Positions 4,009-42,924 of a stretch of 42,924 nt of DNA are shown here, one piece after another. Source of the stretch: an uncultured Bacteroidales bacterium (GTDB lineage Bacteria; Bacteroidota; Bacteroidia; Bacteroidales; FEN-979). The stretch's first letter is position 1; the number at the start of each line of letters is the position of its first letter. Below the pieces are notes generated by a model that was not told where the DNA came from, did not search any database, and saw nothing but the letters and a program-made list of their open reading frames with translations. Both the position numbers and the translations under genes were made by a program. Location: positions 1 through 42,924 of the forward strand of contig CAIKNA010000095.1 in the NCBI GenBank assembly GCA_903828645.1, read 5' to 3'.

Positions 4009-5367
4009 TCAGACTCCCGTCATTTTGGGAGGTTTGGGTTGTTGAGGTTCCTTCCCGCGTTCATCATTTTTATTGGGATTCGGTTGCTGAACCTGCGGGG
4101 AATGCTGCTGAGGGGCAGGCTGGGCAGGATGCTGCTGAGGGGCCGGCTGCTGCCTTGCAGGTTGAGCAGGATGTTGTTGCTGTGCAGGTTGAGCAGGATG
4201 TTGTTGCTGTGCAGGCTGTTGTTTTGGGGGTTGAGCAGGTTGCTGACGGGGAGGCTGCTGTTGTACCGGTTGAGTTTGATGTTGCTGGGGTGCAGGCTGT
4301 TGTTTTGGAGGTTGAACTGGTTGCTGCCTGGGAGGCTGTTGCTGTACCGGCTGTGTTTGATGTTGCTGGGGCGCAGCCTGTTGTTTGGCAGGCTGTGTTT
4401 GATGTTGCTGCTGTGATGGCTGCTGTTTGGCAGGCTGTGTTTGATGTTGCTGCTGTGATGGCTGCTGTTTGGGTTGTTGCGCAGGACGTTGTTGTGGCGA
4501 TGGTTGCTGCCCTGGCTGCGGATTGACCTTTTGGGTCGGGGGTTCCGTCTTTCGTTGCGCTGAAGTTTTAACATTTTCCAGGCGTTCCACCTTTGCCGGA
4601 GCAGGTTTTGCCCCGTTGGAAATATTTCTTTGTACCTGCGGCCTGTATATCTGCAAACGATTTTTGTCAAGGTTCTGACCCGGCTTCGGGCTTTCTTTAA
4701 TGGTTACCGGGGTAAACGTTCTACCGGCGTGTTTTTCCACTTCAGCTCTTCCCGGGCCTGCATTGTAGGTTACATTGCGCGACCTGTCGACCCTGGTATT
4801 TACAATTACCGTGGAATTGTTGATGATAGTGACATTGTTGGAGGAGTTGACATAATAGTTGTTAATATTTCTTCTTCCAAAATCCCTGTCCCTCACAAAG
4901 GTCCACTGGTTATAAGGAACCTGGTAGCCATTTCCATACGCCATGCTGATACTAACACCTGGTCCGATGGGTGCCCATCCGTAATAACCCTCCGATCTTC
5001 TCCAGGTAACCCATCCCGGGCCCCATTCATAATCGGGAACCCACATGGCTCCATATGCAGGATCATTGAACCACCGGCCATAATGAAAAGGCGCCCATCC
5101 CCATGAATAATCGGAAACCCAGGTCCACCCTTCGTCGGTAAATAACCAGTAACCGTTGGTGTAATAAGGAGTAAACCCGGGGGCGACGTTGGGAATCCAT
5201 ACGTATCCATACTGCGGGCTGTCAATCCAGGTGCCATAGGGACTCAGATTGTCATAAAAAACCTGGAAGCTGACAGAGGCCCCCTGTGCATTTGCTTTTT
5301 GCGCTGTGAATGCTGCACTGGCAATGAGTAAAAGCAAAATCGATATAAGTTTCATTTTCCTTTTCAT
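4009..5367 (-). CDS. DUF6600/YXWGXW-type protein with a long Q/P-rich C-terminal tail
   Basis: Start at MKRKMKLISILLLL (5367), signal peptide, aromatic repeats (YGTWIDSPQYGYVWIP, GWAPFHYGRW, WGPGWVTWR), then PAQQQHPAQPAQQQ repeats. Confidence 0.8.
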   Translation of the reverse strand: MKRKMKLISILLLLIASAAFTAQKANAQGASVSFQVFYDNLSPYGTWIDSPQYGYVWIPNVAPGFTPYYTNGYWLFTDEGWTWVSDYSWGWAPFHYGRWFNDPAYGAMWVPDYEWGPGWVTWRRSEGYYGWAPIGPGVSISMAYGNGYQVPYNQWTFVRDRDFGRRNINNYYVNSSNNVTIINNSTVIVNTRVDRSRNVTYNAGPGRAEVEKHAGRTFTPVTIKESPKPGQNLDKNRLQIYRPQVQRNISNGAKPAPAKVERLENVKTSAQRKTEPPTQKVNPQPGQQPSPQQRPAQQPKQQPSQQQHQTQPAKQQPSQQQHQTQPAKQQAAPQQHQTQPVQQQPPRQQPVQPPKQQPAPQQHQTQPVQQQPPRQQPAQPPKQQPAQQQHPAQPAQQQHPAQPARQQPAPQQHPAQPAPQQHSPQVQQPNPNKNDERGKEPQQPKPPKMTGV

Positions 5368-5401
5368 ATATAAGGTATTAAGTGATGAGATTATCAGGAT
5401 G

Positions 5402-5468
5402 CAAAAATGCACCCGTTTTCTCGCGAAAGTGTTACACAATTCAGGGTAAGAGTTGCATCATTCACACA
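5402..5468 (-). promoter_or_regulatory. Copy 2 of the 67-bp promoter module
   Basis: Minus strand: TGTGTGAATGATGCAACTCTTACCCTGAATTGTGTAACAC, N23, TTTG (CAAA at 5402-5405). Upstream of the DUF6600 gene. Confidence 0.9.
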
Positions 5469-5487
5469 TTCCGGGCAGTGCTTCGTA

Positions 5488-5554
5488 TGTGTGAATCATG
5501 TAACTTATTTAAAAAGTTATATAACACTTTCACAGGAGGATGCCTATAATTTTG
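5488..5554 (+). promoter_or_regulatory. Copy 3 of the 67-bp promoter module
   Basis: TGTGTGAATCATGTAACTTATTTAAAAAGTTATATAACAC (5488-5527), N23, TTTG at 5551-5554 within TATAATTTTG. Upstream of the MlaE-like operon. Confidence 0.92.
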
Positions 5555-5582: not shown

Positions 5583-6422
5583 ATGAATAAAACAAATCCG
5601 GTTATTAAAGTAAAAGGTTTCGCAACGAACCAATCGGTGAGGCTGAGCGAAAAAACAATGGCAAAAACTGTCCAGGCAAATAATTTCCTGACAGATCTTG
5701 CCGATGTGTTTTTTTTTATTAGCCGGTTCCTGCGTGAAACTTTTTCACGCAATTTTGAATTCAAAGAGTTTCTTCGCCAGTGTTTTCAAATCGGTTATAA
5801 ATCGCTGCCTCTCATTTCTATCACAGGAACCATCATGGGACTGGTGCTTACCATCCAGTCGCGCCCGGTACTTATCAAATTCGGAGCCGTAACCATGTTG
5901 CCGGGGATGGTTGCAATCTCACTGATCAGGGAAATGGGACCGGTGATCACGGCATTGATATGCGCCGGGAAAATCGGTTCGGGAATGGGGGCTGAACTGG
6001 GCTCGATGCGTGTGACCGAACAAATTGACGCCATGGAAGTATCCTCCACCAACCCGATGCGCTTTTTAGTTGTCACGAGGGTGTGGGCAGCCATGATCAT
6101 GATCCCGCTGTTGATATTGTATGCCGATGCATTTGGTATCCTCGGAAGCTGGGCCGGCGCAAACCTTAAGGGCGATGTTTCGTTCGTGTTGTTTTTCTCG
6201 CAGGCTTTCAGCCATGTTAAGTTTATGGACTTTCTACCAGCGGTCATTAAATCATTTTTTTTCGGGGCTGTGATTGGATTTGTCGGCTGTTATAAAGGCT
6301 ACAATGCAGGACGGGGAACAGAAAGCGTAGGCATCGCGGCAAATTCGGCTGTTGTGCTGGCATCGCTGCTGGTGATCATTGTTGATATGATAGCCGTCCA
6401 GATTACGGATATGCTGGTGTGA
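5583..6422 (+). CDS. MlaE-family ABC transporter permease
   Basis: 279 aa; GTIMGLVLTIQSRPVLIKFGA...ALICAGKIGSGMGAELGSMRVTEQIDAMEV is characteristic of MlaE permeases. Confidence 0.93.
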   Translation: MNKTNPVIKVKGFATNQSVRLSEKTMAKTVQANNFLTDLADVFFFISRFLRETFSRNFEFKEFLRQCFQIGYKSLPLISITGTIMGLVLTIQSRPVLIKFGAVTMLPGMVAISLIREMGPVITALICAGKIGSGMGAELGSMRVTEQIDAMEVSSTNPMRFLVVTRVWAAMIMIPLLILYADAFGILGSWAGANLKGDVSFVLFFSQAFSHVKFMDFLPAVIKSFFFGAVIGFVGCYKGYNAGRGTESVGIAANSAVVLASLLVIIVDMIAVQITDMLV

Positions 6423-6423
6423 G

Positions 6424-7266
6424 ATGGAACATAAGAGACTTGAAAATTTGAAAAGTGAACCCCTTAGCATAAATATGATGAATACCTCCCAACCTGAAAT
6501 GATCTCAAAAGTGCTGAATAAAACAACAGGCGGAGATCCGGTCATCGAAATCAATCACCTGAGGAAATCTTTCGGCCAGCAGGAGGTACTGAAAAACATG
6601 TCGGTCTCCCTGATGAAAGGCGAAAACCTGGTTGTGCTTGGAAAATCCGGCTCTGGAAAGTCTGTTCTGATAAAGTGTATTGTGGGTTTATTGAATGCTG
6701 ATGGCGGGACAATCAATGTGTTTAATAAGAATGTCCTTGCGATGAGCCGGGAAGAACTGGGCGAACTGAGGCAGAAAATCGGTTTTCTTTTTCAAAGCGG
6801 CGCACTGTATGATTCCATGACCGTGAAAGAGAACCTTGAATTTCCCCTGCGAAGAATAAAGAAGGAGATGACGGAAAACGAAAGATCTGAAAAAATAAAT
6901 GAGGTCCTTGAGAACGTAGGACTGGCAGACGCTTTGAATAAAATGCCTTCCCAGTTGTCTGGCGGTATGCGAAAAAGGATAAGCCTTGCCCGTACCATTG
7001 TCGTGGACCCGATGATCATGCTCTATGATGAACCCACCACGGGTCTTGACCCGATCACATCCGATGAGATCAGTTCGCTGATCAATGATGTTCAAAAAAA
7101 ATACAAAACTTCCTCCATCATCATCACCCATGACATCAATTGCGCGCACAACACAGCAAACCGGATCGTCATGCTGAAAGATGGAGAAATATACATGGAA
7201 GGAAAGACAGCGGATTTTGAAAACTCATCCGACCCTTTCATTCAATCATTCTTCCAAAAATCGTAA
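6424..7266 (+). CDS. MlaF-like ABC transporter ATP-binding protein
   Basis: Walker A GKSGSGKS, signature LSGGMRKRISLARTI, Walker B MLYDEPTTGLDP. Start could also be 6478. Confidence 0.93.
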   Translation: MEHKRLENLKSEPLSINMMNTSQPEMISKVLNKTTGGDPVIEINHLRKSFGQQEVLKNMSVSLMKGENLVVLGKSGSGKSVLIKCIVGLLNADGGTINVFNKNVLAMSREELGELRQKIGFLFQSGALYDSMTVKENLEFPLRRIKKEMTENERSEKINEVLENVGLADALNKMPSQLSGGMRKRISLARTIVVDPMIMLYDEPTTGLDPITSDEISSLINDVQKKYKTSSIIITHDINCAHNTANRIVMLKDGEIYMEGKTADFENSSDPFIQSFFQKS

Positions 7267-7295
7267 ATCGTAAATCGTAAATCGTAAATCGTAAA
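7261..7295. repeat. Heptanucleotide tandem repeat (TCGTAAA)x5 plus a degenerate sixth unit
   Basis: tcgtaaa repeated five times, overlapping the stop of the ATPase gene and filling the gap before the MCE gene. Confidence 0.95.
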
Positions 7296-7308
7296 TTGTA
7301 ACACCCCC

Positions 7309-8091
7309 ATGGATACTCAAACTCAGAAATTCAAAGTCCGACTGGGACTTTTTATTGCCGGAGGCCTGGCACTTTTTGTAATGGCCATCTTTATCATCGG
7401 AAAACAAAAAAATTTATTCAACCCTGTTTTTCAGCTTACAACGACTTTTTCGAATGTCAGCGGATTGCAGGTTGGGAATAACATCCGGTTCTCGGGCATA
7501 ACGGTGGGCACTGTTGACAAGATCACCATCATCAATGATTCAACGGTTAAAGTTGCCATGCTGATCAAAAAAGAGGTCAAGCAGTTTATTAAATCTGATT
7601 GTGAAGTAGCCATTGGTTCAGAAGGGCTTATCGGCGACCGGCTCCTGGTGATCACCCAGGGCAGTAACGAAGCTCCCCCGGCAAAAGCAGGGCAGCAGCT
7701 TGCTTCGGCCGAGCCGGTTGAAATAGACGCCATCATGGCAAGCCTGCAGGTAACGGCCGGAAATGCCGAGATCATCTCTCAGGAACTTGCCGAGATCATG
7801 TATAAAGTGAACAGCGGGAACGGAACGCTCGGCAGGCTGATCCAGGATACAACGATTGCCAACAATTTGAGCCAGACGATGGTGAACATTAAAAAAAGCA
7901 CCAAGGGGCTGGATGAGAATATGAATGCAGCCAAGCACAATTTCCTTTTAAGAGGTTATTTCAGAAAACAGGCAGAGGCGGCAGAAGAAAAGAAAAAGGA
8001 TGCTGAGAATAAAGCAGCCAGGGAACTAAAGAAACAGGAGTCGGACGATAAAAAAGCGGCGAAGCAGAAAGCGAAAGACGATAAGAAATAG
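7309..8091 (+). CDS. MlaD/MCE-family substrate-binding protein
   Basis: N-terminal TM helix, then TTTFSNVSGLQVGNNIRFSGITVGTVDKI, an MCE domain; Lys-rich C-terminal tail. Confidence 0.92.
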   Translation: MDTQTQKFKVRLGLFIAGGLALFVMAIFIIGKQKNLFNPVFQLTTTFSNVSGLQVGNNIRFSGITVGTVDKITIINDSTVKVAMLIKKEVKQFIKSDCEVAIGSEGLIGDRLLVITQGSNEAPPAKAGQQLASAEPVEIDAIMASLQVTAGNAEIISQELAEIMYKVNSGNGTLGRLIQDTTIANNLSQTMVNIKKSTKGLDENMNAAKHNFLLRGYFRKQAEAAEEKKKDAENKAARELKKQESDDKKAAKQKAKDDKK

Positions 8092-8119
8092 ATCGTGCCC
8101 CTTTACCCGATACCGGAAA

Positions 8120-8186
8120 TGTGTGAATCATGTAAGAATGTCCAAAAGTTGTGTAACATATGTGTGGCATCAGTTACGCACCTTTG
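8120..8186 (+). promoter_or_regulatory. Copy 4 of the 67-bp promoter module
   Basis: TGTGTGAATCATGTAAGAATGTCCAAAAGTTGTGTAACAT, N23, TTTG at 8183-8186. Upstream of the OmpA/MotB lipoprotein gene. Confidence 0.88.
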
Positions 8187-8215
8187 CTCATGATTATTCA
8201 CCAAAAAAAAACAAA

Positions 8216-9013
8216 ATGAAAAACGCAATCCATTCCTTTGCATGCTTATCCCTTCTGATGGGTGTTATGTTCACCTCATGCGTGTCGAACAAAAAATTCC
8301 TGGCTTCGGAAGCCAGGGCAGACAAGTTACAAAAAGAAAACGCAAACTCAGTGAATCAGCTGATCGACTGCAATTTACAGGTAAAAAACTTAAAGGACAC
8401 CAAGGCATCACTTCAGAATGAAAATGCCTCGGTTGAAAATGACCTGAAGACTCTTGCAACCGAGTCAAAAATGACCATTGCCGACCAGGCGAAACGGTTA
8501 AAAAGCCTTCAGAACATCATTCAGTCACAAAAGGATGTCATGAACAACCTTAAGAATTCAATAGCCGCAGCACTGCTGAATTATAAGGCTGATGAGTTGT
8601 CGGTCTATATTAAAGACGGAAACGTTTATGTTTCCCTTGAAGAAAAACTGTTGTTCAAATCGGGCAGCGATGTGGTGAACCCACAGGGAAAAGAAGCCCT
8701 CAAATCTCTGGCCCGGGTTTTAAACAGCACCAAAGATGTGACCGTAAATATCGAGGGTCATACCGACAACGTTCCCATCGCAACCAAATCATTCCAGGAC
8801 AACTGGGATCTCAGCACTGCAAGAGCAACCTCCATTGTGCGCATCCTGGCAAAAGACTACGATGTTGATCCGAATCGCATCATCGCCTCAGGCAGGGGCC
8901 AGTTTCACCCGGTCAAAACAAATGACACTGCTGAAGGACGGGCCGGAAACCGCAGAACTGAAATCATTCTCTCTCCTGATTTGAATGAATTATATAAGCT
9001 GTTGTACCAATAG
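8216..9013 (+). CDS. OmpA/MotB-like lipoprotein
   Basis: Start MKNAIHSFACLSLLMGVMFTSC (lipobox), coiled coil, OmpA domain (LFKSGSDVVNPQGKEAL...IEGHTDNVPI...WDLSTARATSIVRIL). Confidence 0.9.
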   Translation: MKNAIHSFACLSLLMGVMFTSCVSNKKFLASEARADKLQKENANSVNQLIDCNLQVKNLKDTKASLQNENASVENDLKTLATESKMTIADQAKRLKSLQNIIQSQKDVMNNLKNSIAAALLNYKADELSVYIKDGNVYVSLEEKLLFKSGSDVVNPQGKEALKSLARVLNSTKDVTVNIEGHTDNVPIATKSFQDNWDLSTARATSIVRILAKDYDVDPNRIIASGRGQFHPVKTNDTAEGRAGNRRTEIILSPDLNELYKLLYQ

Positions 9014-9737: not shown

Positions 9738-9831
9738 GCCCGGATAAAGTTATTCACCGGCTCTGCCGTCGGTATTCACCCGTGCATGTTTCACCGTTGA
9801 ATTCAAGGTCACGGATTGAATAAATATCAAA

Positions 9832-9898
9832 TGTGTGAATGATGTAAGTTATTCCGGAAATTATATAACAGGTGAGGTATTGGGGTGGCATACCTTTG
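9832..9898 (+). promoter_or_regulatory. Copy 5 of the 67-bp promoter module
   Basis: TGTGTGAATGATGTAAGTTATTCCGGAAATTATATAACAG, N23, TTTG at 9895-9898 within TACCTTTG. Confidence 0.9.
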
Positions 9899-9937: not shown

Positions 9938-10093
9938 ATGGGAAACTTACTTTACATCATCGCGGTCATACTGATCATCGGATGGCTCATCGGATTTTTT
10001 GCATACAGCGCCGGGGGCATGATACACATTCTTCTTGTCATTGCGCTTATTGCAATAATAGTCAGGGTCATACAGGGAAGAAGCGCCATTTGA
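9938..10093 (+). CDS. 51-aa small membrane protein (lmo0937/DUF5670-like)
   Basis: Hand translation MGNLLYIIAVILIIGWLIGFFAYSAGGMIHILLVIALIAIIVRVIQGRSAI*; immediately downstream of promoter copy 5. Below the ORF-track size cut-off. Confidence 0.85.
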   Translation: MGNLLYIIAVILIIGWLIGFFAYSAGGMIHILLVIALIAIIVRVIQGRSAI

Positions 10094-14651: not shown

Positions 14652-14655
14652 GAAA

Positions 14656-14722
14656 TGTGTGAATTATGTAACTTTTTTAAAAAATTATGTAAAACATGCC
14701 GGTAAGAAGAAGATGAACTTTG
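14656..14722 (+). promoter_or_regulatory. Copy 6 of the 67-bp promoter module
   Basis: TGTGTGAATTATGTAACTTTTTTAAAAAATTATGTAAAAC, N23, TTTG at 14719-14722. Upstream of the AraC-type regulator. Confidence 0.88.
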
Positions 14723-14779: not shown

Positions 14780-15361
14780 TTGAAAATATACATCAAATAC
14801 ATGGTGAGCGCCCGATGTAAAATGGCGGTAAAGGAGGCGTTGAAAGGACTTGGACTTCATTTCATCGTGGTGGATCTGGGAGAAGTAGAAATCATGGAGA
14901 CCCTTTCTGCCGAACAGCGAAAGGAGCTCACAACAGTTTTGCTCAATTCGGGGCTCGAATTGATGGATGACAAACGGGCAGTGCTAATTGAAAAAATTAA
15001 AAATGCCATTATTGAAATGGTTCATCATACGGATGAAATCATCAAAATTAACTTTTCCGATTTTTTGAGTAAAAAACTGGCCCACGACTACACCTATCTA
15101 TCCAATTTGTTTTCAGAAGTTCAGGGAACCACCATCGAACAATTCATCATCTCTCACAAAATTGAACGGATTAAGGAGCTGATCATCTATGACGAACTGA
15201 ACATCACGGAAATTGCATGGAAGATGAACTACAGCAGTGTTGCCCATCTCTCCAACCAGTTTAAAAAAGTAACCGGGCTCTCCCCTTCCCATTTTAAACA
15301 ACTGAAGGTTAAACGTCGCAGCCCGATTGAAGATATCGGAAATTCAACGGATGAAAATTAA
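14780..15361 (+). CDS. AraC-family transcriptional regulator
   Basis: Probable TTG start giving (M)KIYIKYMVSARCKMAVKEALKGLG; C-terminal HTH IERIKELIIYDELNITEIAWKMNYSSVAHLSNQFKKVTGLSPSHFKQ matches the AraC double-HTH signature. Confidence 0.9.
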   Translation: MKIYIKYMVSARCKMAVKEALKGLGLHFIVVDLGEVEIMETLSAEQRKELTTVLLNSGLELMDDKRAVLIEKIKNAIIEMVHHTDEIIKINFSDFLSKKLAHDYTYLSNLFSEVQGTTIEQFIISHKIERIKELIIYDELNITEIAWKMNYSSVAHLSNQFKKVTGLSPSHFKQLKVKRRSPIEDIGNSTDEN

Positions 15362-15400: not shown

Positions 15401-18022
15401 ATGCAACGGACACAATCACATGAATCGCAATACGCCAGCAGCCTGATTGAAGCCAGCCTTGACCCGTTGATCACCATAAGCACCGATGGCAAAATCACCG
15501 ACATGAACCAGGCAAAGGTGGATATCACCGGTGTTGATCGTGAACATCTGATAGGGACCAATTTTTACGACTATTTTACCGACCCGGAAAAAGCGTCTGA
15601 AGTATATAAGGAAGTTTTCCTCAAGGGAACGATTATCGATGCGCCCCTTACCTTCCGGCATGTCAACGGAAAACTGACCGATGTACTATTTAATGGTTCG
15701 GTCTATAAAGATGATCATGGTAATGTGCTTGGTGCGGTTGTGGTGGCAAGAGATATCTCCGAACAAAAATGGGCCAGGGAGTTGCGAAATGCAAACAAAG
15801 AACTTGTTTTTCAGAACAATGAAAAAGGGAAAAGAGCGGAAGAGCTGATCATTGCAAACAAAGAGCTGGCTTTCCAGAATGATGAGAAAGAAAAACGGGC
15901 ACAAGAGTTGATCATTGCCAACAAAGAGCTGGCTTTCCAGAACGATGAGAAAGAAAAACGCGCTGCGGAACTGGTCATTGCCAATAAAGAACTTGCCTTT
16001 CAAAACGATGAGAAGGAAAAACGGGCAGCCGAGCTGATCATCGCAAACTATGCCCGCAGCCTCATCGAGGCGAGCCGAGATCCAATGTTCACGATCAGCC
16101 CGGCGGGAAAAATCACCGACATAAACAATGCATCGGTACAGATCACGGGGATTCCGCGTAATGAACTCACAGGGACCGACTTCTTCGATTATTTTACCGA
16201 ACCGCAGAAAGCACGGGTCGTTTACCGCGATGTATTTGCAAAAGGGTTTGTGGCGGATTATCCGTTAACGATAAAAGATCATAAGCTTACGGATGTGCTG
16301 TTAAATGGTTCCGTTTATAAGGATGCCCGGGGGAATGTGCTTGGTGTAGTCGTGGTGGCCAGGGATATTACCGAACAGAAAAGAATTGAGACGGAACTGA
16401 CAGAGGCGATCGTATTTGCCGAGCTGGCAACAAGTATTGCGGAAGAGGCGAAGCTAAAAGCCGAAGACTCCACTCGGATCGCAGAAAACGCGGTGAAGGC
16501 TAAACAGCAATTCCTGTCGAACATGAGTCACGAAATCCGCACGCCTATGAATGCGATCATCGGATTCACCAAGGTGCTGCTGAAAACAGAACTTTCGTCC
16601 AAACAGAAGGAATACCTGACTGCCATCAAAATGAGCGGCGATGCCCTGATCGTGCTAATCAACGACATACTCGACCTGGCAAAAGTGGATGCCGGGAAGA
16701 TGATCTTCGAGCAGACTCCCTTTACCATGGCGCTGTCGATATCGGCCATGCTTCATCTGTTTGAGGCAAAAATCCAGGAGAAGAATTTAGAGTTGGTGAT
16801 AGAATACGACAAAAACATTCCTGCTGTATTGGTGGGCGACCCTGTGCGGCTGCACCAGATCATTTTAAACCTGGTGAGCAATGCTGTAAAATTCACCACA
16901 AAAGGGAAGATCACCGTGACCGTTAACCTGTTAAGCGAAGACGAAGATAAAGTAACCATTGAGTTTGCCATAGCAGATACCGGGATCGGGATACCGCCAG
17001 ATAAAATAGAGAAGATTTTTGAAAACTTCCAGCAGGCTTCAAGCGGCACATCCAGGTTATATGGCGGAACTGGTTTGGGTCTTGCCATTGTCAAGCAACT
17101 GGTTGAGCCACAGGGCGGCACCATTCGGGTAAAAAGTAAAATCAATGAAGGTTCAACCTTTAGTTTCATATTGAGTTTCCTTAAAACGACCGGTGAAGCT
17201 GAAGCCGAAGAGGAGGTCGTGGAACTGGATACGGAGATAAAAAATATCAAGGTACTGGTTGTTGAAGACATCCCTCTCAACCAGTTGCTAATGAAAACGC
17301 TGCTGGATGACTTCGGATTTGACCGTGATCTTGCCTCCAACGGAAAAATTGCCATCGAAAAACTGCAAACCAAATCATTCGACATCATTTTGATGGACTT
17401 GCAGATGCCGGAAATGAACGGGTTTGAAGCAACGGAATTCATCCGGACCAAACTGAACTCCAAAATCCCCATCATTGCGTTAACGGCTGATGTAACCACT
17501 GTTGACCTCGCAAAATGCAAGGCTGTGGGCATGAACGATTATATTGCAAAACCGGTTGACGAACGTTTGCTATACAGCAAAATAATCGGGCTTGTAAAAA
17601 AACCAGCCCCCGGAAAATTCGGCGGGAATGAAGAGAATGGATACATTCCAACGCAAAAGCTAAAATACACCGATCTCGATTATCTGATCCATCGTACCAA
17701 ATCCAATCCCAAACTGATGATGGAGATGATTTCACTATATCTTGAACAAACTCCCCTGTTGATCAGCGCCATGAGGCGAAGCCTGCAGGATAAAGACTGG
17801 CATTCGCTGCATGCGGCCGTGCATAAGATGATCCCCTCTTTTTCCATCATGGGGATCAGCCCGGATTTTGAAAACATGGCAAAAAAAATCCAGGAATTCG
17901 CAACAACCCAGCAGCAGTCTGAGGAGATACATGACATGGTTTTCCAGGTTGGGAATGTGTGTACCCAGGCATGTAAAGAACTGGAAGTGGAGTTTAACAG
18001 AATTAAAAAATCAGACACGTGA
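15401..18022 (+). CDS. Hybrid sensor histidine kinase (PAS-coiled coil-PAS-HisKA-HATPase-REC-Hpt)
   Basis: Two PAS domains, HisKA FLSNMSHEIRTPMNAIIGFTK, HATPase GTGLGLAIVKQLV, REC ILMDLQMPEMNGFE, C-terminal Hpt-like LHAAVHKMIPSFSIMG. Confidence 0.93.
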   Translation: MQRTQSHESQYASSLIEASLDPLITISTDGKITDMNQAKVDITGVDREHLIGTNFYDYFTDPEKASEVYKEVFLKGTIIDAPLTFRHVNGKLTDVLFNGSVYKDDHGNVLGAVVVARDISEQKWARELRNANKELVFQNNEKGKRAEELIIANKELAFQNDEKEKRAQELIIANKELAFQNDEKEKRAAELVIANKELAFQNDEKEKRAAELIIANYARSLIEASRDPMFTISPAGKITDINNASVQITGIPRNELTGTDFFDYFTEPQKARVVYRDVFAKGFVADYPLTIKDHKLTDVLLNGSVYKDARGNVLGVVVVARDITEQKRIETELTEAIVFAELATSIAEEAKLKAEDSTRIAENAVKAKQQFLSNMSHEIRTPMNAIIGFTKVLLKTELSSKQKEYLTAIKMSGDALIVLINDILDLAKVDAGKMIFEQTPFTMALSISAMLHLFEAKIQEKNLELVIEYDKNIPAVLVGDPVRLHQIILNLVSNAVKFTTKGKITVTVNLLSEDEDKVTIEFAIADTGIGIPPDKIEKIFENFQQASSGTSRLYGGTGLGLAIVKQLVEPQGGTIRVKSKINEGSTFSFILSFLKTTGEAEAEEEVVELDTEIKNIKVLVVEDIPLNQLLMKTLLDDFGFDRDLASNGKIAIEKLQTKSFDIILMDLQMPEMNGFEATEFIRTKLNSKIPIIALTADVTTVDLAKCKAVGMNDYIAKPVDERLLYSKIIGLVKKPAPGKFGGNEENGYIPTQKLKYTDLDYLIHRTKSNPKLMMEMISLYLEQTPLLISAMRRSLQDKDWHSLHAAVHKMIPSFSIMGISPDFENMAKKIQEFATTQQQSEEIHDMVFQVGNVCTQACKELEVEFNRIKKSDT

Positions 18023-18453
18023 AACACGACAATAAAATAAAACTCTTCCTCGTAGATGACGATGCATTGTTCCTGAAATCGCTGGAAATTGAATTCCTGC
18101 AACATGCCGATTTTACCATTGAGACTTTTGCCACGGGAGAACTTTGCGTCGCAAACCTGTCGCACGATCCCGATGTGATCATCCTGGATTACCGGCTTGA
18201 TGGCATCGAGAAAGATGCGATAAACGGAATTGAGACCCTTGACAAAATCAAGGCATTCAACCCCGACATTCCCGTGGTAATGTTGTCTGCACAGGATAAA
18301 ATTGATGTGGCGATAAATTGCATGCACCACAGGGCTTTTGATTATGTTGTGAAAAGCGAAACCGCTTTTATCCGGTTACAAAAAATCATCACCACCATTT
18401 TCCGCTACAAAAAGATGGAAAAGGAGTTGAACTGGTACATGGAGAGGATGTAA
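18019..18453 (+). CDS. Stand-alone response regulator (REC only)
   Basis: 144 aa, GTG start overlapping the kinase stop by 4 nt; LFLVDDDALFLKSL, DVIILDYRLDG, VVMLSAQD. Confidence 0.9.
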   Translation: MKHDNKIKLFLVDDDALFLKSLEIEFLQHADFTIETFATGELCVANLSHDPDVIILDYRLDGIEKDAINGIETLDKIKAFNPDIPVVMLSAQDKIDVAINCMHHRAFDYVVKSETAFIRLQKIITTIFRYKKMEKELNWYMERM

Positions 18454-24655: not shown

Positions 24656-24661
24656 GTAAAA

Positions 24662-24728
24662 TGCGTGAATCATGTAACTCTTTTCGAAAATCATGTAACA
24701 CAATCTTACCGGCAGGTACCTAATTTAG
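24662..24728 (+). promoter_or_regulatory. Copy 7 of the 67-bp promoter module (TTAG variant)
   Basis: TGCGTGAATCATGTAACTCTTTTCGAAAATCATGTAACAC, N23, TTAG at 24725-24728. The 11-mer AATCATGTAAC occurs twice, 21 bp apart. Confidence 0.85.
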
Positions 24729-24748: not shown

Positions 24749-25099
24749 ATGAAAGAAGAAGCCGTCTATGCCAAACTGCCCTCCGGGCATAAAAGCAACG
24801 AAGAAGCGAATGATATGCCCGGATACCCGGCATATCCTGCCAGCGAGGATATTTACCGGAAATTCCGGGAAGAACAGGATATAAATCCTGAAGATGTCAC
24901 CCTGATCAAAGTGCCGGATGAAAATAAAGCCGGTGCAAACAATGAAAAGGATTTTCCCGACGACATGTCTGGTAGCGATCTTGACATTCCCGGCTCAGAA
25001 CTGGATGATGAGATGGAAAATACCGGCGGTGAAGATGAGGAGAATAATTTCTACAGCCTTGGAGGAGATGACCACAGCGACCTGGATGAACAAAAGTGA
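24749..25099 (+). CDS. Hypothetical acidic protein
   Basis: 116 aa, strongly acidic C-terminus (DIPGSELDDEMENTGGEDEENNFYSLGGDDHSDLDEQK); immediately downstream of promoter copy 7. Confidence 0.75.
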   Translation: MKEEAVYAKLPSGHKSNEEANDMPGYPAYPASEDIYRKFREEQDINPEDVTLIKVPDENKAGANNEKDFPDDMSGSDLDIPGSELDDEMENTGGEDEENNFYSLGGDDHSDLDEQK

Positions 25100-25128
25100 G
25101 AAGTCCTGAACCTTTTAAAATAACTGAT

Positions 25129-25623
25129 ATGAAACCGATTAAGAAAAAAAAAGTATTGATTGCACTTGATTATAATCCAACCGCACAAAAAGTGGCAGAG
25201 GTGGGCTTTGCAATGGCCCGGTCCATGGATGCGGAAGTAATTTTACTGCATGTGGTATCCGACCCGGTATATTACGCTTCAACTGACTTTTCTCCGATCA
25301 TGGGATATGTTGGCAACCTGGATGTGAGCCAGATGGAACCGGATATTGCTGTCGTGCTGAAAAAAGCATCCCTGGAGTTCCTTGACAAATCAAGACACCA
25401 CCTGGGCGACGACACCATTCAAACCATGGTTGAGGAAGGTGATTTCGCCGAAGCAATCCTGAAGAGTGCAAAAAAAATGAAAGCCGATATCATTGTCTTA
25501 GGTACTCACAGCCGCAAATGGCTGGAGAATATCGTTATGGGAAGCGTTGCCGAAAAGGTTTTACGTCACACGACCATCCCTCTTTTCGTGGTTCCGACAA
25601 AATACAACAACCACCCTTCATAG
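25129..25623 (+). CDS. Universal stress protein (UspA family)
   Basis: MKPIKKKKVLIALDYNPTAQKVAEVGFAMARSMDAEVILLHVV...ADIIVLGTHSRKWLENIVMGSVAEKVLRHTTIPLFVV. Confidence 0.93.
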   Translation: MKPIKKKKVLIALDYNPTAQKVAEVGFAMARSMDAEVILLHVVSDPVYYASTDFSPIMGYVGNLDVSQMEPDIAVVLKKASLEFLDKSRHHLGDDTIQTMVEEGDFAEAILKSAKKMKADIIVLGTHSRKWLENIVMGSVAEKVLRHTTIPLFVVPTKYNNHPS

Positions 25624-25627
25624 AAAA

Positions 25628-28150
25628 ATGGATCAGACTCCTCCTTCATTCTGGAGCTTCCCGGCTTCAGAATTACTTGACAGGCTCCAGGCGACTGTTG
25701 GCGGACTGACATCCCCGGAAGCAAAAAAGAGGCTCATCAGCTTTGGGGCTAACCGCCTGAAGCCAAAAACAAGATCGAATGCATTCACGCTCCTGATCGG
25801 GCAGTTCAAGAGCCCGATCATTCTCATCCTGCTGGTTGCAACGGGGTTATCATTGTTTTTGCATAACCTTGTTGATGCTTCCATCATTTTTGCCATTGTT
25901 CTCATCAGCGGGCTCCTTGGCTTCTGGCAGGAGAACAGCGCCTCCAATGCCGTGGCAAAGTTGCTTGCCATCGTACAAATCAAGGCTGCCGTACTCCGCG
26001 ATGGCAAAGAGGTTGAGATTCCGGTAGAGGATATTGTTCCTGGCGATGTCGTGGTATTGAATGCAGGGGATATTGTACCGGGAGACTGCCTGCTGATAGA
26101 GGAGAAAGATATTTTTGCGGATGAAGCCATGCTTACCGGCGAAACATTCCCGGTTGAAAAATCTGTGACGTTACTGCCAGCCGATACTGCCCTGGCTCAA
26201 AGGACAAACACCGTGTGGATGGGAACACATATCGTAAGCGGTACAGCCAAAGCCCTGGTGATACTTACCGGGATAAACACCGAGTTTGGAAAGGTCTCCG
26301 AGCGACTGAACCTGAAGGCGCCGGAAACGGACTTTGAACATGGCATACGGAAATTCGGATATTTTCTAGGAGAGGTCACACTGGTGCTTGTGGTCGTTAT
26401 TTTCGCCATCAACGTATACCTTCACCGGCCGGTTCTCGACGCCTTTCTTTTTTCACTGGCGCTGGCAGTCGGTCTCACCCCGCAGTTATTACCGGCAATC
26501 ATCAGCATCAACCTGGCGCATGGCGCCAAAAAGATGGCGCAAAATAAAGTGATCGTCAAACGGCTTGCTTCCATTGAGAACTTCGGCAGCATGAATATCA
26601 TCTGTTCCGACAAAACCGGCACGCTTACAGAGGGAACGGTCCAGGTTGAATCGGCCCTCGACGTGAACGGAGCTGCAAACGACAAGGTTTTCCTGTATGC
26701 ATACATCAATGCGTTTTACGAAACGGGCTTCACAAATCCTATTGATGAAGCCATTTTGAAATATCGGAAACCTGACCTGGCGGGCTATGCCAAACACGAT
26801 GAAATTCCCTATGATTTTCTCCGGAAACGACTGAGCATATCCGTCACTCATGGAGACGCCCACGTAATGGTGACCAAGGGTGCGCTTGCCAATATTCTCG
26901 AGGTATGCTCTACCTCAGAAACGAAGGAAGGCACCATTGTTGCCATCGCTTCGGTACAGGAACAGATTCAGGAACATTTTGCTGCATTCAGCAACGAGGG
27001 TTTTCGTACCCTTGGCATCGCTTATAAAAGCATGTCCAATGATTCGCTTATCAGCAAGAGCGATGAGAAAGACATGACCTTCCTGGGGTTTCTTACCCTG
27101 TTTGACCCGCCAAAGGCCAACATAGCCGAAACCATCAACAGCCTGAAAAAACTGGGCGTTGCGCTCAAAATTATCACGGGCGACAACAAACTGGTTGCTG
27201 CCAGCCTGAGTAAAAAGATGGGTCTTACCGATACCAAAATCCTCACGGGTCCTGATCTTCGCAGGATGAGCGATGGCGCATTGCTCCGGCAGGTGGGCAC
27301 GGTGAGCGTTTTCGCAGAAATCGAGCCCAACCAGAAAGAACGAATCATCATCGCCATGCGCAAGGCCGGGAACGTGGTTGGATACATGGGTGATGGCATC
27401 AACGACGCCTCCGCGCTTCACGCCGCCGACGTCGGGATTTCGGTGGATACCGCCGCAGATGTCGCCAAGGATGCTGCTGATATCGTGTTGCTCGACAAGG
27501 ACCTGGGTGTGCTGATCGAAGGCGTCAAAGAAGGAAGGACAACTTTTGCCAATACGCTGAAGTACGTCTTCATGGCCACAAGCGCCAATTTCGGGAATAT
27601 GTTCAGCATGGCAGGCGTATCGCTCTTCATCCCCTTTCTTCCATTGCTGCCCAAACAGATCTTGCTGACCAACCTGCTTACCGACTTTCCGGAGATGACC
27701 ATTGCAACCGACAGGGTTGATGATGAGATGATAAACTACCCCAGGAGGTGGGATATCAAAGCCATTCGCAAGTTCATGATTACCTTTGGCCTGGTAAGCT
27801 CTGTTTTCGACTACCTGACCTTTGGATTGCTGCTGCTCGTGCTTCGGGCCAGCGAGGTTCAGTTCAGGACAGGCTGGTTCCTTGAATCGGTCATTTCAGC
27901 TTCGATGATCGTGCTTGTTATCCGAAGCCGGAAACCGTTTTTCAGGAGCAGGCCGGGAAAATACCTGCTGATCGCCACACTGACGATTGCGGTTGTCACC
28001 ATCATCCTGCCATTCACCCCGCTTGGAAATGTTTTTGGATTCACTCCTCTCACGCTTACCACCTATCTGCTGCTGATGCTGATTGTGATGGCTTATATCT
28101 TTGCAGCAGAGGTCACCAAAAGATTTTTTTATCAAAGGGTCAAATTTTAA
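25628..28150 (+). CDS. Mg2+-importing (MgtA-like) P-type ATPase
   Basis: SDKTGTLTEGTV, GYMGDGINDASALHAADVGISVDTAADVAKDAADIVLL, and the MgtA-like LLTNLLTDFPEMTIATDRVDDEM region. Confidence 0.9.
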   Translation: MDQTPPSFWSFPASELLDRLQATVGGLTSPEAKKRLISFGANRLKPKTRSNAFTLLIGQFKSPIILILLVATGLSLFLHNLVDASIIFAIVLISGLLGFWQENSASNAVAKLLAIVQIKAAVLRDGKEVEIPVEDIVPGDVVVLNAGDIVPGDCLLIEEKDIFADEAMLTGETFPVEKSVTLLPADTALAQRTNTVWMGTHIVSGTAKALVILTGINTEFGKVSERLNLKAPETDFEHGIRKFGYFLGEVTLVLVVVIFAINVYLHRPVLDAFLFSLALAVGLTPQLLPAIISINLAHGAKKMAQNKVIVKRLASIENFGSMNIICSDKTGTLTEGTVQVESALDVNGAANDKVFLYAYINAFYETGFTNPIDEAILKYRKPDLAGYAKHDEIPYDFLRKRLSISVTHGDAHVMVTKGALANILEVCSTSETKEGTIVAIASVQEQIQEHFAAFSNEGFRTLGIAYKSMSNDSLISKSDEKDMTFLGFLTLFDPPKANIAETINSLKKLGVALKIITGDNKLVAASLSKKMGLTDTKILTGPDLRRMSDGALLRQVGTVSVFAEIEPNQKERIIIAMRKAGNVVGYMGDGINDASALHAADVGISVDTAADVAKDAADIVLLDKDLGVLIEGVKEGRTTFANTLKYVFMATSANFGNMFSMAGVSLFIPFLPLLPKQILLTNLLTDFPEMTIATDRVDDEMINYPRRWDIKAIRKFMITFGLVSSVFDYLTFGLLLLVLRASEVQFRTGWFLESVISASMIVLVIRSRKPFFRSRPGKYLLIATLTIAVVTIILPFTPLGNVFGFTPLTLTTYLLLMLIVMAYIFAAEVTKRFFYQRVKF

Positions 28151-28160
28151 TCCTGCAAAA

Positions 28161-28227
28161 TGTGTGAATGATGCAAGTTATCATTAAAGTTATGTAACAC
28201 TTCCGCAATGAAAAGAGTGCAACTTTG
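28161..28227 (+). promoter_or_regulatory. Copy 8 of the 67-bp promoter module
   Basis: TGTGTGAATGATGCAAGTTATCATTAAAGTTATGTAACAC, N23, TTTG at 28224-28227. Confidence 0.92.
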
Positions 28228-28265: not shown

Positions 28266-28652
28266 ATGAAAACAGCAAAAAAATTAGGCATTTGGATGGA
28301 TCATTCAAGCGCTCATATTACGGAATTTTCAACAGGGGTGTTGCAGACCACCGTCATCACCTCGAAATTCACTCACGCGGATAAAGAGCTGAGTCTCGAC
28401 AAAGGAGAAAGCATGATGCACACAAAGGAACAGCACAAACTTTCGGCCTATTACAAAGAACTTGGAGAGGTTATCAGAAATTACGATGAGGTGATTCTCT
28501 TCGGACCGACCGATGCAAAAGTTGAATTGTTCAATTTACTGAAAGCAGATCACCTTTTTGCAAAAACAGAGATCGAGCTTGAACAAACAGATAAAATGAC
28601 AGAACATCAACAACAATCCTTTGTCAAAAAATATTTCATTTCAAAGAATTAA
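28266..28652 (+). CDS. eRF1-like / translational-machinery-like protein
   Basis: 128 aa; GIWMDHSSAHITEF... and YYKELGEVIRNYDEVILFGPTDAKVELFNLLKAD resembles bacterial eRF1-like (baeRF) C-terminal folds. Family assignment from memory of the pattern only. Confidence 0.55.
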   Translation: MKTAKKLGIWMDHSSAHITEFSTGVLQTTVITSKFTHADKELSLDKGESMMHTKEQHKLSAYYKELGEVIRNYDEVILFGPTDAKVELFNLLKADHLFAKTEIELEQTDKMTEHQQQSFVKKYFISKN

Positions 28653-33094: not shown

Positions 33095-33213
33095 AATTCA
33101 CTTCCCTCCGGAAATTCCTTTTAATCCCAATTTATTTTGTGTTTCTCTGCGTTAGTTTGTGTCTAAAGGGATTTAACAACCAATTTTAAGCAGACTCTTT
33201 GTTCCAGGTAAAA

Positions 33214-33280
33214 TGTGTGAATGATGTAACTCTTTGCCAAAGTTATATAACACAGATGGCGGCTCATGAATATAACTTTG
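33214..33280 (+). promoter_or_regulatory. Copy 9 of the 67-bp promoter module
   Basis: TGTGTGAATGATGTAACTCTTTGCCAAAGTTATATAACAC, N23, TTTG at 33277-33280 within TAACTTTG. Confidence 0.92.
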
Positions 33281-37019: not shown

Positions 37020-37059
37020 ATTCGCCGAATAGCAGGCCATTGAACAAACATTGAATAAA

Positions 37060-37181
37060 CATCGAAGGAACATCGAAGGAACATCGAAGGAACATCAAAG
37101 GAACATCGAAGGTAACTTAGAGAAGACTTAGGGAAGACTTAGAGAAGGCTTAGGGGAGTCTTAAAGAAGACTTAGAAAAGG
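37060..37181. repeat. Two adjacent 11-bp-period tandem repeats
   Basis: CATCGAAGGAA x5 (37060-37114, one variant unit), then CTTAGAGAAGA-type x6 (37116-37181). Confidence 0.92.
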
Positions 37182-38970: not shown

Positions 38971-39150
38971 TCAATTGTCATGGTGGTCGTCGTTGTCATG
39001 ATGGCCGTCGTTTCCATGATGCTGGCTTTGGCCGTGTGGTTCATGATGGCCCCTGGAACTTCCCATTCCCGGACCCGGGAACATACAGGACGACATGAAC
39101 GTGGTACCTGATACCATGATGACGAAGAGGACCATTCGTAACTTTTTCAT
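38971..39150 (-). CDS. 59-aa His-rich putative lipoprotein
   Basis: Hand translation MKKLRMVLFVIMVSGTTFMSSCMFPGPGMGSSRGHHEPHGQSQHHGNDGHHDNDDHHDN*; lipobox-like MSSC; downstream of promoter copy 10. Just under the ORF-track cut-off. Confidence 0.8.
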   Translation of the reverse strand: MKKLRMVLFVIMVSGTTFMSSCMFPGPGMGSSRGHHEPHGQSQHHGNDGHHDNDDHHDN

Positions 39151-39186: not shown

Positions 39187-39253
39187 CAAAGTTCAGTTCA
39201 TTTGGATCCTAAAGTGTTACATAACTCCTGAAATAACTTACATCATTCACACA
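39187..39253 (-). promoter_or_regulatory. Copy 10 of the 67-bp promoter module
   Basis: Minus strand: TGTGTGAATGATGTAAGTTATTTCAGGAGTTATGTAACAC, N23, TTTG (CAAA at 39187-39190). Confidence 0.92.
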
Positions 39254-40315
39254 TTAAAAAGCGGCCGGAATCTTCTTCTTCTTTTTAAAGATGTCAAACC
39301 GGGTTCCTCCCCACAGGCGAAATTGTGCCACATCATAACTGAAGAGTGCCTTGCTGAGTTTGTCGGGAACTTCGTTAAAGCCTGTCTGAACCGACCCGCC
39401 GAGGAACCATTTATCTGAATTGTAACCAAAGGCGAACCTCCCGCTGAGTTGAAAAGCAAATTCAAAGTCGGAAAAGGCTTTCTCTCCACCGCTATATGAG
39501 GAAAACTGGGCGGCAACACCCGGGAAAAGAGCTGCCGTGAGATATATATTCTTCAGGAATACCAGGGTGTAGGCATATCCCGGCGAAAGTCCCAGGGAAT
39601 AAAAAGTACCGCTTGTCACAACGCTTGTCAATGGTATGTGATACTCGTTAACAAGTCCTGCAGGAATGATGCCCTGATCGGAAGTTATGTTATAATATAA
39701 CAATGCAGGCCTGACAACCAGGCTCCCGGCACTCCTCTTCTGGCGTTCATTCTGGATAAATGCCGCCCGGATGGAAAATCGCCTGGCATTATAAATCCAA
39801 TACCCGGCCAGGCCAAGTGAAAATGTGCGCATGTCGGGAAGGGTATAATGAGTTCCGTCAGGTTTTTCAGGAGAGCTGATAAAATAACCGTGGTATTGCT
39901 GCAGAAACAACTCCCCTGCAACGACTCGCCCGAACGCGTTTACGCGGAGGTCAAGGGTGGATGTTTTTCCATAGGCATCCTGGTCGGTTTTGTAGAAAGG
40001 ATTATCAATGGACAATCCCAATCCGAACCATTTCCAGAATCCTGCGATCCCCACCCGGAGGTTTACATTCGGCCGGTAAACGATCTTTGGAATATTATCA
40101 CCGGCGGTATTGATGAGCAGCGAGGCATTCTGAAACAGCAGGAACAGTCGGGTCGTGAACAAACCGGTGTAATCTGCCAGGTACGTACTGTCGAAATTTC
40201 CCGGAAGCGATTCCTCCTGGTTGGGGTAAGATTGTGAAAAAGATTCTTTCCCCGGCAATGACAGGCAAACAGCAATCAGACCGGCTATCCAAACTTTATG
40301 CAACATCCCCGACAA
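39254..40315 (-). CDS. DUF4421 domain-containing protein
   Basis: 353 aa, signal peptide, outer-membrane strands (IVYRPNVNLRVGIAGFWKWFGLGLSIDNPF...SFSLGL..YW); family from pattern recognition. Confidence 0.7.
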   Translation of the reverse strand: MSGMLHKVWIAGLIAVCLSLPGKESFSQSYPNQEESLPGNFDSTYLADYTGLFTTRLFLLFQNASLLINTAGDNIPKIVYRPNVNLRVGIAGFWKWFGLGLSIDNPFYKTDQDAYGKTSTLDLRVNAFGRVVAGELFLQQYHGYFISSPEKPDGTHYTLPDMRTFSLGLAGYWIYNARRFSIRAAFIQNERQKRSAGSLVVRPALLYYNITSDQGIIPAGLVNEYHIPLTSVVTSGTFYSLGLSPGYAYTLVFLKNIYLTAALFPGVAAQFSSYSGGEKAFSDFEFAFQLSGRFAFGYNSDKWFLGGSVQTGFNEVPDKLSKALFSYDVAQFRLWGGTRFDIFKKKKKIPAAF

Positions 40316-40564: not shown

Positions 40565-41899
40565 CTATTGTTTCACGATTTTTACAGAGGCAACCTGGTT
40601 TTTGGATACTATCCTGAGCAGATATATCCCCCCGGGTTTACCGAATAGTGAAATGGCATATTTTCCGGATTGGTTCATGTTTTGCGACAGAACCTCCTCG
40701 CTCTGCATGCTGAAAATTTCAACCCTAACGGGTCCGGAATCTTCGACATTTGCCAGGTCAAGTGTTACCATACCGGGTGTTGGGTTGGGATAGATTTTAA
40801 AAAAGTTTCCGGCGGGTTTTCGGGGAATTGTTTTGTTCAGGGTTTCATTCTCTCCGGAGGATGTAATTTCGGTATTTTTCAGGACGCTGCAATACAGACC
40901 ATCGGGGGTGATGTACCCATGCAGGTATCCCCCGGCATTGACCCTTGTTCCTTCAAGGCAGGTTATTATTTGGCCGGCGATCATGACAACATTGGCGCCG
41001 TTGCTGATTGTAAAGGTAGTTCCATTTCCGGCAGTGGTGATGGTTTGGGTGGCATCATAACAGGTACTCTGGTCGATCCCGAAATTCAAATCCTGGAGAA
41101 CCAGATTGCAGTTCACACCCGGCTGATTAATGGCAAAGGCTCCGCTTGTCGTACATGAATTCTGATCGGTAATGATCACCGAATAATTTCCGGCCACAAG
41201 ACTATCCAGGTTCATGGTGGTCGCCCCTGTATTCCAGGCACATGCATACGGGGGCACCCCGCCTGTAACAACAAGGTGAATGCTTCCGTCATTGCCGCCG
41301 CTGCAAGTTACTTCAACCGTCGATGCTATGATCGAAAAGGCTGGCGGTTGCGTGACCTGATAAGATTTTGTGATTTGGCAATTATTCGCATCTGTTATTG
41401 TGAGGTTATATGCTCCAGCGGCAACTCCAGCCAAACTGCCTGTTGTGGAACCGTTATCCCATTGGTAGGCGAATGGTTCCAATCCCCCTGAAACTGCAAC
41501 ATCAATGGCACCGGTTTGAGAACCAGAACATAAGACATTGGTAATCGTTTCTGTTGAAAAAAGTTGTGGAAGTAATATTACATTGACTGATCCTTCAGAG
41601 AAACTTCCGGCCGGTGGCGCGAAAAATACAATTAAATGAATCTGGTCACTGGCATAACCGGGCGAACCCGGTAAAATTACAGGAGCCCGATCCGAGGAAG
41701 TCCAGGATCCGCTCAAATTGGTCCAGGCAAAAGTTGCATCCGGATTATTACACCCCTGCAGGGTACAAAACAGATTGACAGGATCACCGTAGCAAACAGG
41801 ATTGGGTAATACAACCTGTGCGTTTGCAGTCTTCAACACGGTAACTATAAATAAAAAAGCAATTAACAATGCCTTATGGAATATAGAGGTTGGTTTCAT
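40565..41899 (-). CDS. SprB-repeat secreted protein with T9SS-type C-terminal sorting domain
   Basis: Start MKPTSIFHKALLIAFLFIVTVLKTANAQ (41899); two SprB-like repeats (SGGLEPFAYQWDNGSTTGSLAGVAAGAYNLTITDANNC); C-terminal FKIYPNPTPGMVTLDL...GIYLLRIVSKNQVASVKIVKQ. Confidence 0.88.
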   Translation of the reverse strand: MKPTSIFHKALLIAFLFIVTVLKTANAQVVLPNPVCYGDPVNLFCTLQGCNNPDATFAWTNLSGSWTSSDRAPVILPGSPGYASDQIHLIVFFAPPAGSFSEGSVNVILLPQLFSTETITNVLCSGSQTGAIDVAVSGGLEPFAYQWDNGSTTGSLAGVAAGAYNLTITDANNCQITKSYQVTQPPAFSIIASTVEVTCSGGNDGSIHLVVTGGVPPYACAWNTGATTMNLDSLVAGNYSVIITDQNSCTTSGAFAINQPGVNCNLVLQDLNFGIDQSTCYDATQTITTAGNGTTFTISNGANVVMIAGQIITCLEGTRVNAGGYLHGYITPDGLYCSVLKNTEITSSGENETLNKTIPRKPAGNFFKIYPNPTPGMVTLDLANVEDSGPVRVEIFSMQSEEVLSQNMNQSGKYAISLFGKPGGIYLLRIVSKNQVASVKIVKQ

Positions 41900-41937
41900 G
41901 GAATTTGGTTTTAATGACGGGTATAACTCTTGTTTTA

Positions 41938-42004
41938 CAAATATCATCACCATCAATGCTATATCTGTTATATAATTTTAATAATAAATTACATAATTCA
42001 CACT
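41938..42004 (-). promoter_or_regulatory. Copy 11 of the 67-bp promoter module
   Basis: Minus strand: AGTGTGAATTATGTAATTTATTATTAAAATTATATAACAG, N23, TTTG (CAAA at 41938-41941). Confidence 0.87.
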
Positions 42005-42161
42005 TTTAGGAATTATCAGCAGATCATACTTTTGGGAGTTACCTGCAGACAATTGTCATCCTGAAGTGTTATGCATCACGTTTGCCCTTACAGGGAGTCA
42101 GGTCAACATGATCCGGACAATTCCCTGCAGGGGCATGAAGATTGTCAAAGCACCAGCCTTA

Positions 42162-42761
42162 TTATAATTTTAAAAGCGCGACCGGTTCCATTTGCAAGGT
42201 GAGATCTTCTTTTCCGATGTTCGTAAGTTCGATTTCACAGGAGATGGAAACTTCCTCGCTTACCATTAACCCCCCGGTTTCGAGAGGGGCATTCCAAACC
42301 AGTCCCCATTCACTTCTTGTTAATTTCCCGCTAACGGTAAAACCTGCTTTTTCATTTCCCCAGAGGTCATGTACAATTCCCCCGAATTGCATATTCAGTT
42401 TCACGTTGCGGGTAATACCAACCATCGTCAATTCTCCCCAGAGTTCATGATTGCCTTCATGATCGGGATTTCCAATGGTGCCGGAAGAAAAGGTTATTTG
42501 CTTATGATTTATGACATCGAAGAAATCAGCACTTTTCAAATGCTCATCCCGTTTTTCATTGTTTGTTGTGATGGAAGCAGTGTCAATCCAGAGATCAATT
42601 TCTGCAGTTGTAAAGTCTTTCTCGGTAGTATAAATATTCGCATCGAATTTAAGGAACGCCCCTTTTACATGAGAGATCATCAGGTGTTTCACGCTGAAGG
42701 ATATTTCACTGTGCACCAGGTCGATTGACCATTTTGTTTTTGTTCCGGTCTTGGTTTTCAT
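42162..42761 (-). CDS. YceI-family protein
   Basis: KWSIDLVHSEISFSVKHLMISHVKGAFLKFDANIYTTEKDFTTAEIDLWIDTASITTNNEKRDEHLKSADFFDVINHKQITFSS. Confidence 0.92.
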   Translation of the reverse strand: MKTKTGTKTKWSIDLVHSEISFSVKHLMISHVKGAFLKFDANIYTTEKDFTTAEIDLWIDTASITTNNEKRDEHLKSADFFDVINHKQITFSSGTIGNPDHEGNHELWGELTMVGITRNVKLNMQFGGIVHDLWGNEKAGFTVSGKLTRSEWGLVWNAPLETGGLMVSEEVSISCEIELTNIGKEDLTLQMEPVALLKL

Positions 42762-42853: not shown

Positions 42854-42920
42854 CAAAGGTGAGCCTCTTAATGGTTGAATGTGTTACACAACTTTAAAAT
42901 TAAGTTACATGATTCACACA
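42854..42920 (-). promoter_or_regulatory. Copy 12 of the 67-bp promoter module
   Basis: Minus strand: TGTGTGAATCATGTAACTTAATTTTAAAGTTGTGTAACAC, N23, TTTG (CAAA at 42854-42857). Upstream of YceI. Confidence 0.92.
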
Positions 42921-42924
42921 TTGC

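Follow-up and report, generated by a model that had tools for sequence, protein, structure and literature searches.

A 45-bp element recurs twelve times in the window (the whole 42,924-nt stretch of DNA analysed here, from an uncultured Bacteroidales bacterium), and we regard it, with a probability of about 0.82, as the combined operator and promoter of a regulon that a small AraC-type activator switches on, the candidate reader being the protein encoded at 14780-15361. Two monomers of the activator, oriented head to tail at a distance of 21 bp, would occupy the element. In this class II mode of activation, the proximal monomer would stand where a -33 box would otherwise lie and bring the main RNA polymerase to a standard -7 box. 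The activator would also turn on its own operon, which includes a PAS hybrid kinase, while its HMA-derived, one-cysteine N-terminal domain would probably sense or dimerise. Envelope, surface and general-stress proteins would form the output of the regulon, and in many relatives close paralogues of the activator may act on the element as well.

The original prediction described a direct repeat with a period of 21 bp. In copy 7, the 11-mer AATCATGTAAC indeed occurs at 24668-24678 and again, identical and 21 bp further on, at 24689-24699, and the repeat of AATTATGTAA predicted at the same spacing in copy 6 was found at 14662-14671 and 14683-14692. The two half-sites agree at 7-9 of 11 bases in the remaining ten window copies. 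The pattern AATNATGTAA-N11-AATNATGTAA, with at most 3 mismatches, matched the window 12 times, where shuffles predict 0.02, and every match stands before an open reading frame. Scored with a weight matrix refined on sites of other genomes, each of the 12 copies reached at least 44; the maximum over 20 shuffled windows was -1, and that of the reversed window -9. The copies and their putative targets are the following:

1713-1757, - strand: element; target from 1646 (- strand), a probable ice-binding-like secreted protein that runs off the window, labelled Ice_binding solely from its likeness to other targets
5427-5471, - strand: element; target DUF6600 protein, 4009-5439
5485-5529, + strand: element; target MlaE-ABC-MlaD operon, 5583-8091
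8117-8161, + strand: element; target OmpA-family protein in ORF 8162-9013, which probably starts at a later ATG
9829-9873, + strand: element; target DUF5670 membrane peptide, 9938-10093
14653-14697, + strand: element before the regulator gene (copy 6), -7 box region AACTTTG, kept in orthologues
24659-24703, + strand: element copy 7, with the half-sites given above
24721-24728, + strand: imperfect -7 box TAATTTAG, at the usual spacing from copy 7
24749-25099, + strand: copy 7 target, a 116-aa acidic protein with no Pfam match
25096-25623, + strand: universal stress protein (PF00582), second gene behind copy 7
25547-28150, + strand: P-type cation ATPase, third gene behind copy 7
28158-28202, + strand: element; target 128-aa protein with no family match, 28266-28652
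33211-33255, + strand: element; target DUF3943 protein
39212-39256, - strand: element; target small His-rich lipoprotein-like ORF, 38971-39150
41963-42007, - strand: element; target SprB-repeat protein with a type IX secretion tail, 40565-41956
42879-42923, - strand: element; target YceI-like protein, 42162-42761

Relatives of the 116-aa acidic protein also stand behind an element elsewhere (e.g., L142:12043-12399), and the 128-aa target is followed by PIG-L, glycosyltransferase and DnaJ-like genes. The element at 42879-42923 is identical to a site on another contig of the same assembly (G000:C307:99-131); contig C307 probably overlaps that of the window or is its continuation. Degenerate repeats of 42/39 bp at 4100-4495, within the DUF6600 gene, probably represent a low-complexity tail.

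Across the 5.1-Mb source genome, 33 element sites were found, one of them probably a duplicate contig end, hence about 32; 12 of these 32 fall in the window, which is 0.84% of the genome (binomial P 2e-17). A matrix built from the 12 copies retrieved 246 sites in 80 named loci of other Bacteroidota, and a reversed control of 2.47 million positions yielded no site exceeding the same threshold. A logo made from 245 sites of other genomes reads AAATGTGTGAATNATGTAAC-TTATTTNNAAA-RTTRTGTAACACTT over the 45 bp of the element, followed by about 18 weakly conserved bases and then A-Y-C-TTTG. Its self-similarity peaks at an offset of 21 (0.38), the runner-up being offset 9 (0.255); a purely palindromic site was rejected, the best inverted repeat scoring 0.268, below the 0.38 of the 21-bp direct repeat. 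The predicted period thus stands, whereas the description as a simple direct repeat needs amendment: the element is larger (45 bp), and an extra TGTG is conserved in the distal half and missing from the proximal half, so the element is not a pure direct repeat and its half-sites are not simply equivalent.

The spacing to the downstream promoter box is nearly fixed, with YTTTG at offset 20 in 153 and at offset 19 in 18 of the 245 sites. A -33 TTTG is expected 19-21 bp upstream of a -7 box. At these positions the logo reads TAACAC and the -33 TTTG is absent, and therefore the proximal half-site takes the place of the -33 box. The 3' part of the logo, A-Y-C-TTTG, fits the Bacteroidetes -7 box, for which the consensus TAnnTTTG has been quoted (PMC5682007); copy 7 is followed by the imperfect TAATTTAG instead. 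Two same-orientation half-sites 21 bp apart, with the proximal one overlapping the -35/-33 region at a fixed distance from the -10/-7 box, make up an arrangement that is, as predicted from the sequence, class II activator geometry, in line with the AraC/XylS-like geometry originally proposed. The position of the site also suggests a positive sign, that is, an activator rather than a repressor.

At araI and Pm, two same-orientation half-sites are likewise present, with the proximal one at the -35 region. AraC at araI1/araI2 and XylS at Pm share with the present system the orientation of the half-sites, the overlap of the proximal one with -35/-33 and the AraC-type double HTH. However, the half-site sequence differs, the -7 box here is that of Bacteroidetes, and there are 30 or more sites here versus a few. 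A role of araI1/araI2 in activation has been described (PMC4760080, PMC6018408).

The candidate regulator gene has its own element copy 88 bp upstream, which suggests autoregulation of the predicted activator, and it is followed by two signalling genes:

14780-15361, + strand: candidate regulator, 193 aa, TTG start inferred, HMA-like N-terminal domain and AraC HTH
15401-18022, + strand: hybrid histidine kinase with PAS and receiver domains, the next gene after the regulator
18019-18453, + strand: single-domain response regulator

The AraC HTH (PF12833, 2.2e-16, 60 bits against a cut-off of 33.6) places the protein in the AraC/XylS family. An AlphaFold2 model (mean pLDDT 82) predicted a beta-alpha-beta-beta-alpha-beta order, that of the HMA fold, for roughly residues 1-64, with the AraC HTHs after them. 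When the model was searched with Foldseek, its C-terminal half matched the DNA-binding domains of AraT, SoxS, MarA and AraC, and its N-terminal part matched the copper chaperone Atx1 (2xmv, probability 1.00, TM 0.71 on target, E 0.09), an E-value that limits the likeness to the level of the fold. Pfam HMA (PF00403), run on the domain alone, gave 14.5 bits (E 0.046), below the gathering threshold of 24.8, and we therefore term the domain HMA-like rather than file it as HMA. The MxCxxC metal-binding motif of HMA/Atx1 copper chaperones was not found in the regulator's branch: unlike in those proteins, the first cysteine is absent, and M-V-S-x-R-C replaces the motif in 58 of 58 aligned orthologues. 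More distant relatives keep the full MVCxRC, which is MxCxxC and supports the descent of the N-terminal domain from an HMA domain. This predicted one-cysteine derivative of the HMA fold is probably a sensor or dimerisation domain.

The cupin-type, effector-binding N-terminal domain of sugar-responsive AraC was not found in the regulator, whose N-terminal part is predicted to be HMA-like instead; because the N-terminal domains of the AraC/XylS family vary, this excludes the AraC subtype and not the family. MarA, SoxS and Rob bind single sites as monomers. They too are small activators of the AraC family that act at numerous scattered promoters and on stress genes, and the predicted DNA-binding domain superposes on theirs, whereas the element described here has two half-sites. 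Full-text literature searches returned no earlier description of the HMA-AraC domain combination, which is not proof of absence, and searches for the motif gave nothing relevant. If true, the combination would be an unusual sensor type within the AraC family.

The arrangement of the operon is conserved. A PAS-kinase-like gene lies downstream on the same strand within 4.5 kb, mostly at less than 100 bp, at all 74 loci with enough sequence (74/74), and a single receiver gene was found at 58 of the 74 downstream-testable loci. At one locus (L022, G145:C53), AraC orthologue and PAS kinase form an in-frame fusion with an open frame of more than 1000 aa, and genome G026 has an open frame of similar length. 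Within the window, the kinase gene carries a direct duplication at 15431-16381, with a spacing of about 600 bp, in the PAS region. At least one element was present at 75 of 80 named orthologue loci; it lay within 400 bp upstream of the orthologue in 63 of the 80, mostly 43-59 bp from the start, and no element was found in the 400 bp upstream of the other 17.

The element also follows the regulator across genomes. In a sample of 148 genomes of the order, with homologues called at 195 bits or more and elements at no more than 1 mismatch, the element was present in 21 of 34 genomes with a regulator homologue and in 9 of 114 without (Fisher P 3e-10), and a phylum-wide sample gave 13 of 35 with and 5 of 214 without (Fisher P 5e-9), values that overstate independence because the sampled genomes are related. 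Three or more copies of the element were found in 15 of the 34 order genomes with a homologue and in 1 of the 114 without; in this lone exception (G106), a 60%-identical but truncated homologue lies close to a contig end, and an element precedes the match by 48 bp. In other genomes, where the search was not anchored on the protein, 10 of 109 elements stood within 150 bp of a homologue (0.055 expected) and 44 of 109 within 20 kb (2.6 expected). Together with the fixed -7 spacing and the AraC-HTH gene that carries an element in the window itself, this co-occurrence and adjacency support the AraC-family assignment of the original prediction.

The association has exceptions on both sides. No element was detected at up to 1 mismatch in 13 of the 34 order genomes with a good homologue, and 9 order genomes carry 1-12 elements with no homologue of at least 195 bits. 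Other paralogues may read some of these sites, or the gene may have gone undetected in draft assemblies. Three genomes of the phylum sample (G158, G163 and G340) have good elements and a weak or absent regulator homologue, and another paralogue may read these too. On the supporting side, no element was found near the source genome's AraC-HTH loci outside the regulator family, nor near a more distant family member on contig C35.

A second paralogue group is arranged differently. Its element stands at the 3' end of the AraC gene, before varied genes, and no kinase was seen beside the AraC gene. At six loci (L031, L033, L034, L041, L043 and L160), the stop codon of the second paralogue lies inside the element, an overlap of coding sequence and operator. 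The component common to both arrangements is thus the AraC protein. This bears on the reading in which some other regulator recognises the element and the AraC operon is merely one conserved target. An autoregulation-like position cannot by itself separate target from regulator, and the hybrid kinase and receiver protein share the operon with the AraC gene, but neither the kinase nor the single receiver has a recognised DNA-binding domain, and both the co-occurrence across genomes and the two paralogue groups point to the AraC protein. We consider such a reader unlikely.

A LytTR-type response regulator is a slightly poorer candidate. The sites of LytTR operons consist of 9-bp repeats, mostly 12 bp apart, a layout that has the same 21-bp period, and LytTR systems also show positive feedback on their own operon (PMC6193735); nine LytTR matches were found in the source genome. 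However, the DNA-binding fold differs, and LytTR is present in 142 of the 148 order genomes, a near-ubiquity that cannot explain which genomes have the element. No LytTR domain was found among the scanned window proteins. Moreover, LytTR operon repeats are strongly biased to 10 bp upstream of the -35 box (PMC6193735) and usually stand clear of it, whereas here a half-site replaces the -33 box. LytTR was therefore rejected as the reader, ubiquitous as it is and unlinked to the element. Least probable of all, and likewise rejected, is that the element is no activator site but a promoter read by an alternative (ECF-type) sigma factor: the fixed spacing to the start-site-proximal box and the regulon-like distribution would suit it, but the -7 box conforms to the common Bacteroidetes TAnnTTTG (PMC5682007), the conserved stretch of 45 bp, which includes a direct repeat, greatly exceeds a sigma -35 box in length, and the AraC gene travels with the element.

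The regulon of the AraC-type activator would comprise mostly surface, envelope and stress proteins, with more than 30 genes in the source bacterium, and a role in stress is suggested by these targets. Pfam searches on 139 genes behind elements, a sample biased toward genes near the AraC locus, gave ice-binding-like (24), CsbD (10), receiver (9) and OmpA (6) domains, and further targets included MlaE, Usp, DUF5670, cupin and outer-membrane barrels. The commonest target is ice-binding-like (PF11999; 24/139, L076-L155), and a link to cold is possible.

To our knowledge, Bacteroidota are generally thought not to have the general-stress sigma factors found in other phyla. The coordination of their stress genes becomes a testable question now that a candidate regulator, an operator and many targets can be named. 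The element-bearing named loci include Flavobacterium, Labilibaculum, Paludibacter and others, and in the cultured F. gawalongense the regulator gene has the element (L140). A wider reading, which we offer tentatively and at a little less than even odds, is that a widespread and so far undescribed stress/envelope regulon of Bacteroidota may be governed by an AraC-type activator and not by an alternative sigma factor, and that its sensor may be a repurposed, single-cysteine copper-chaperone fold coupled to the PAS hybrid kinase that the activator's autoregulated operon also encodes.

In addition, the window contains an intergenic tandem array of the 11-bp unit CATCGAAGGAA, in about seven copies, at 37038-37114.
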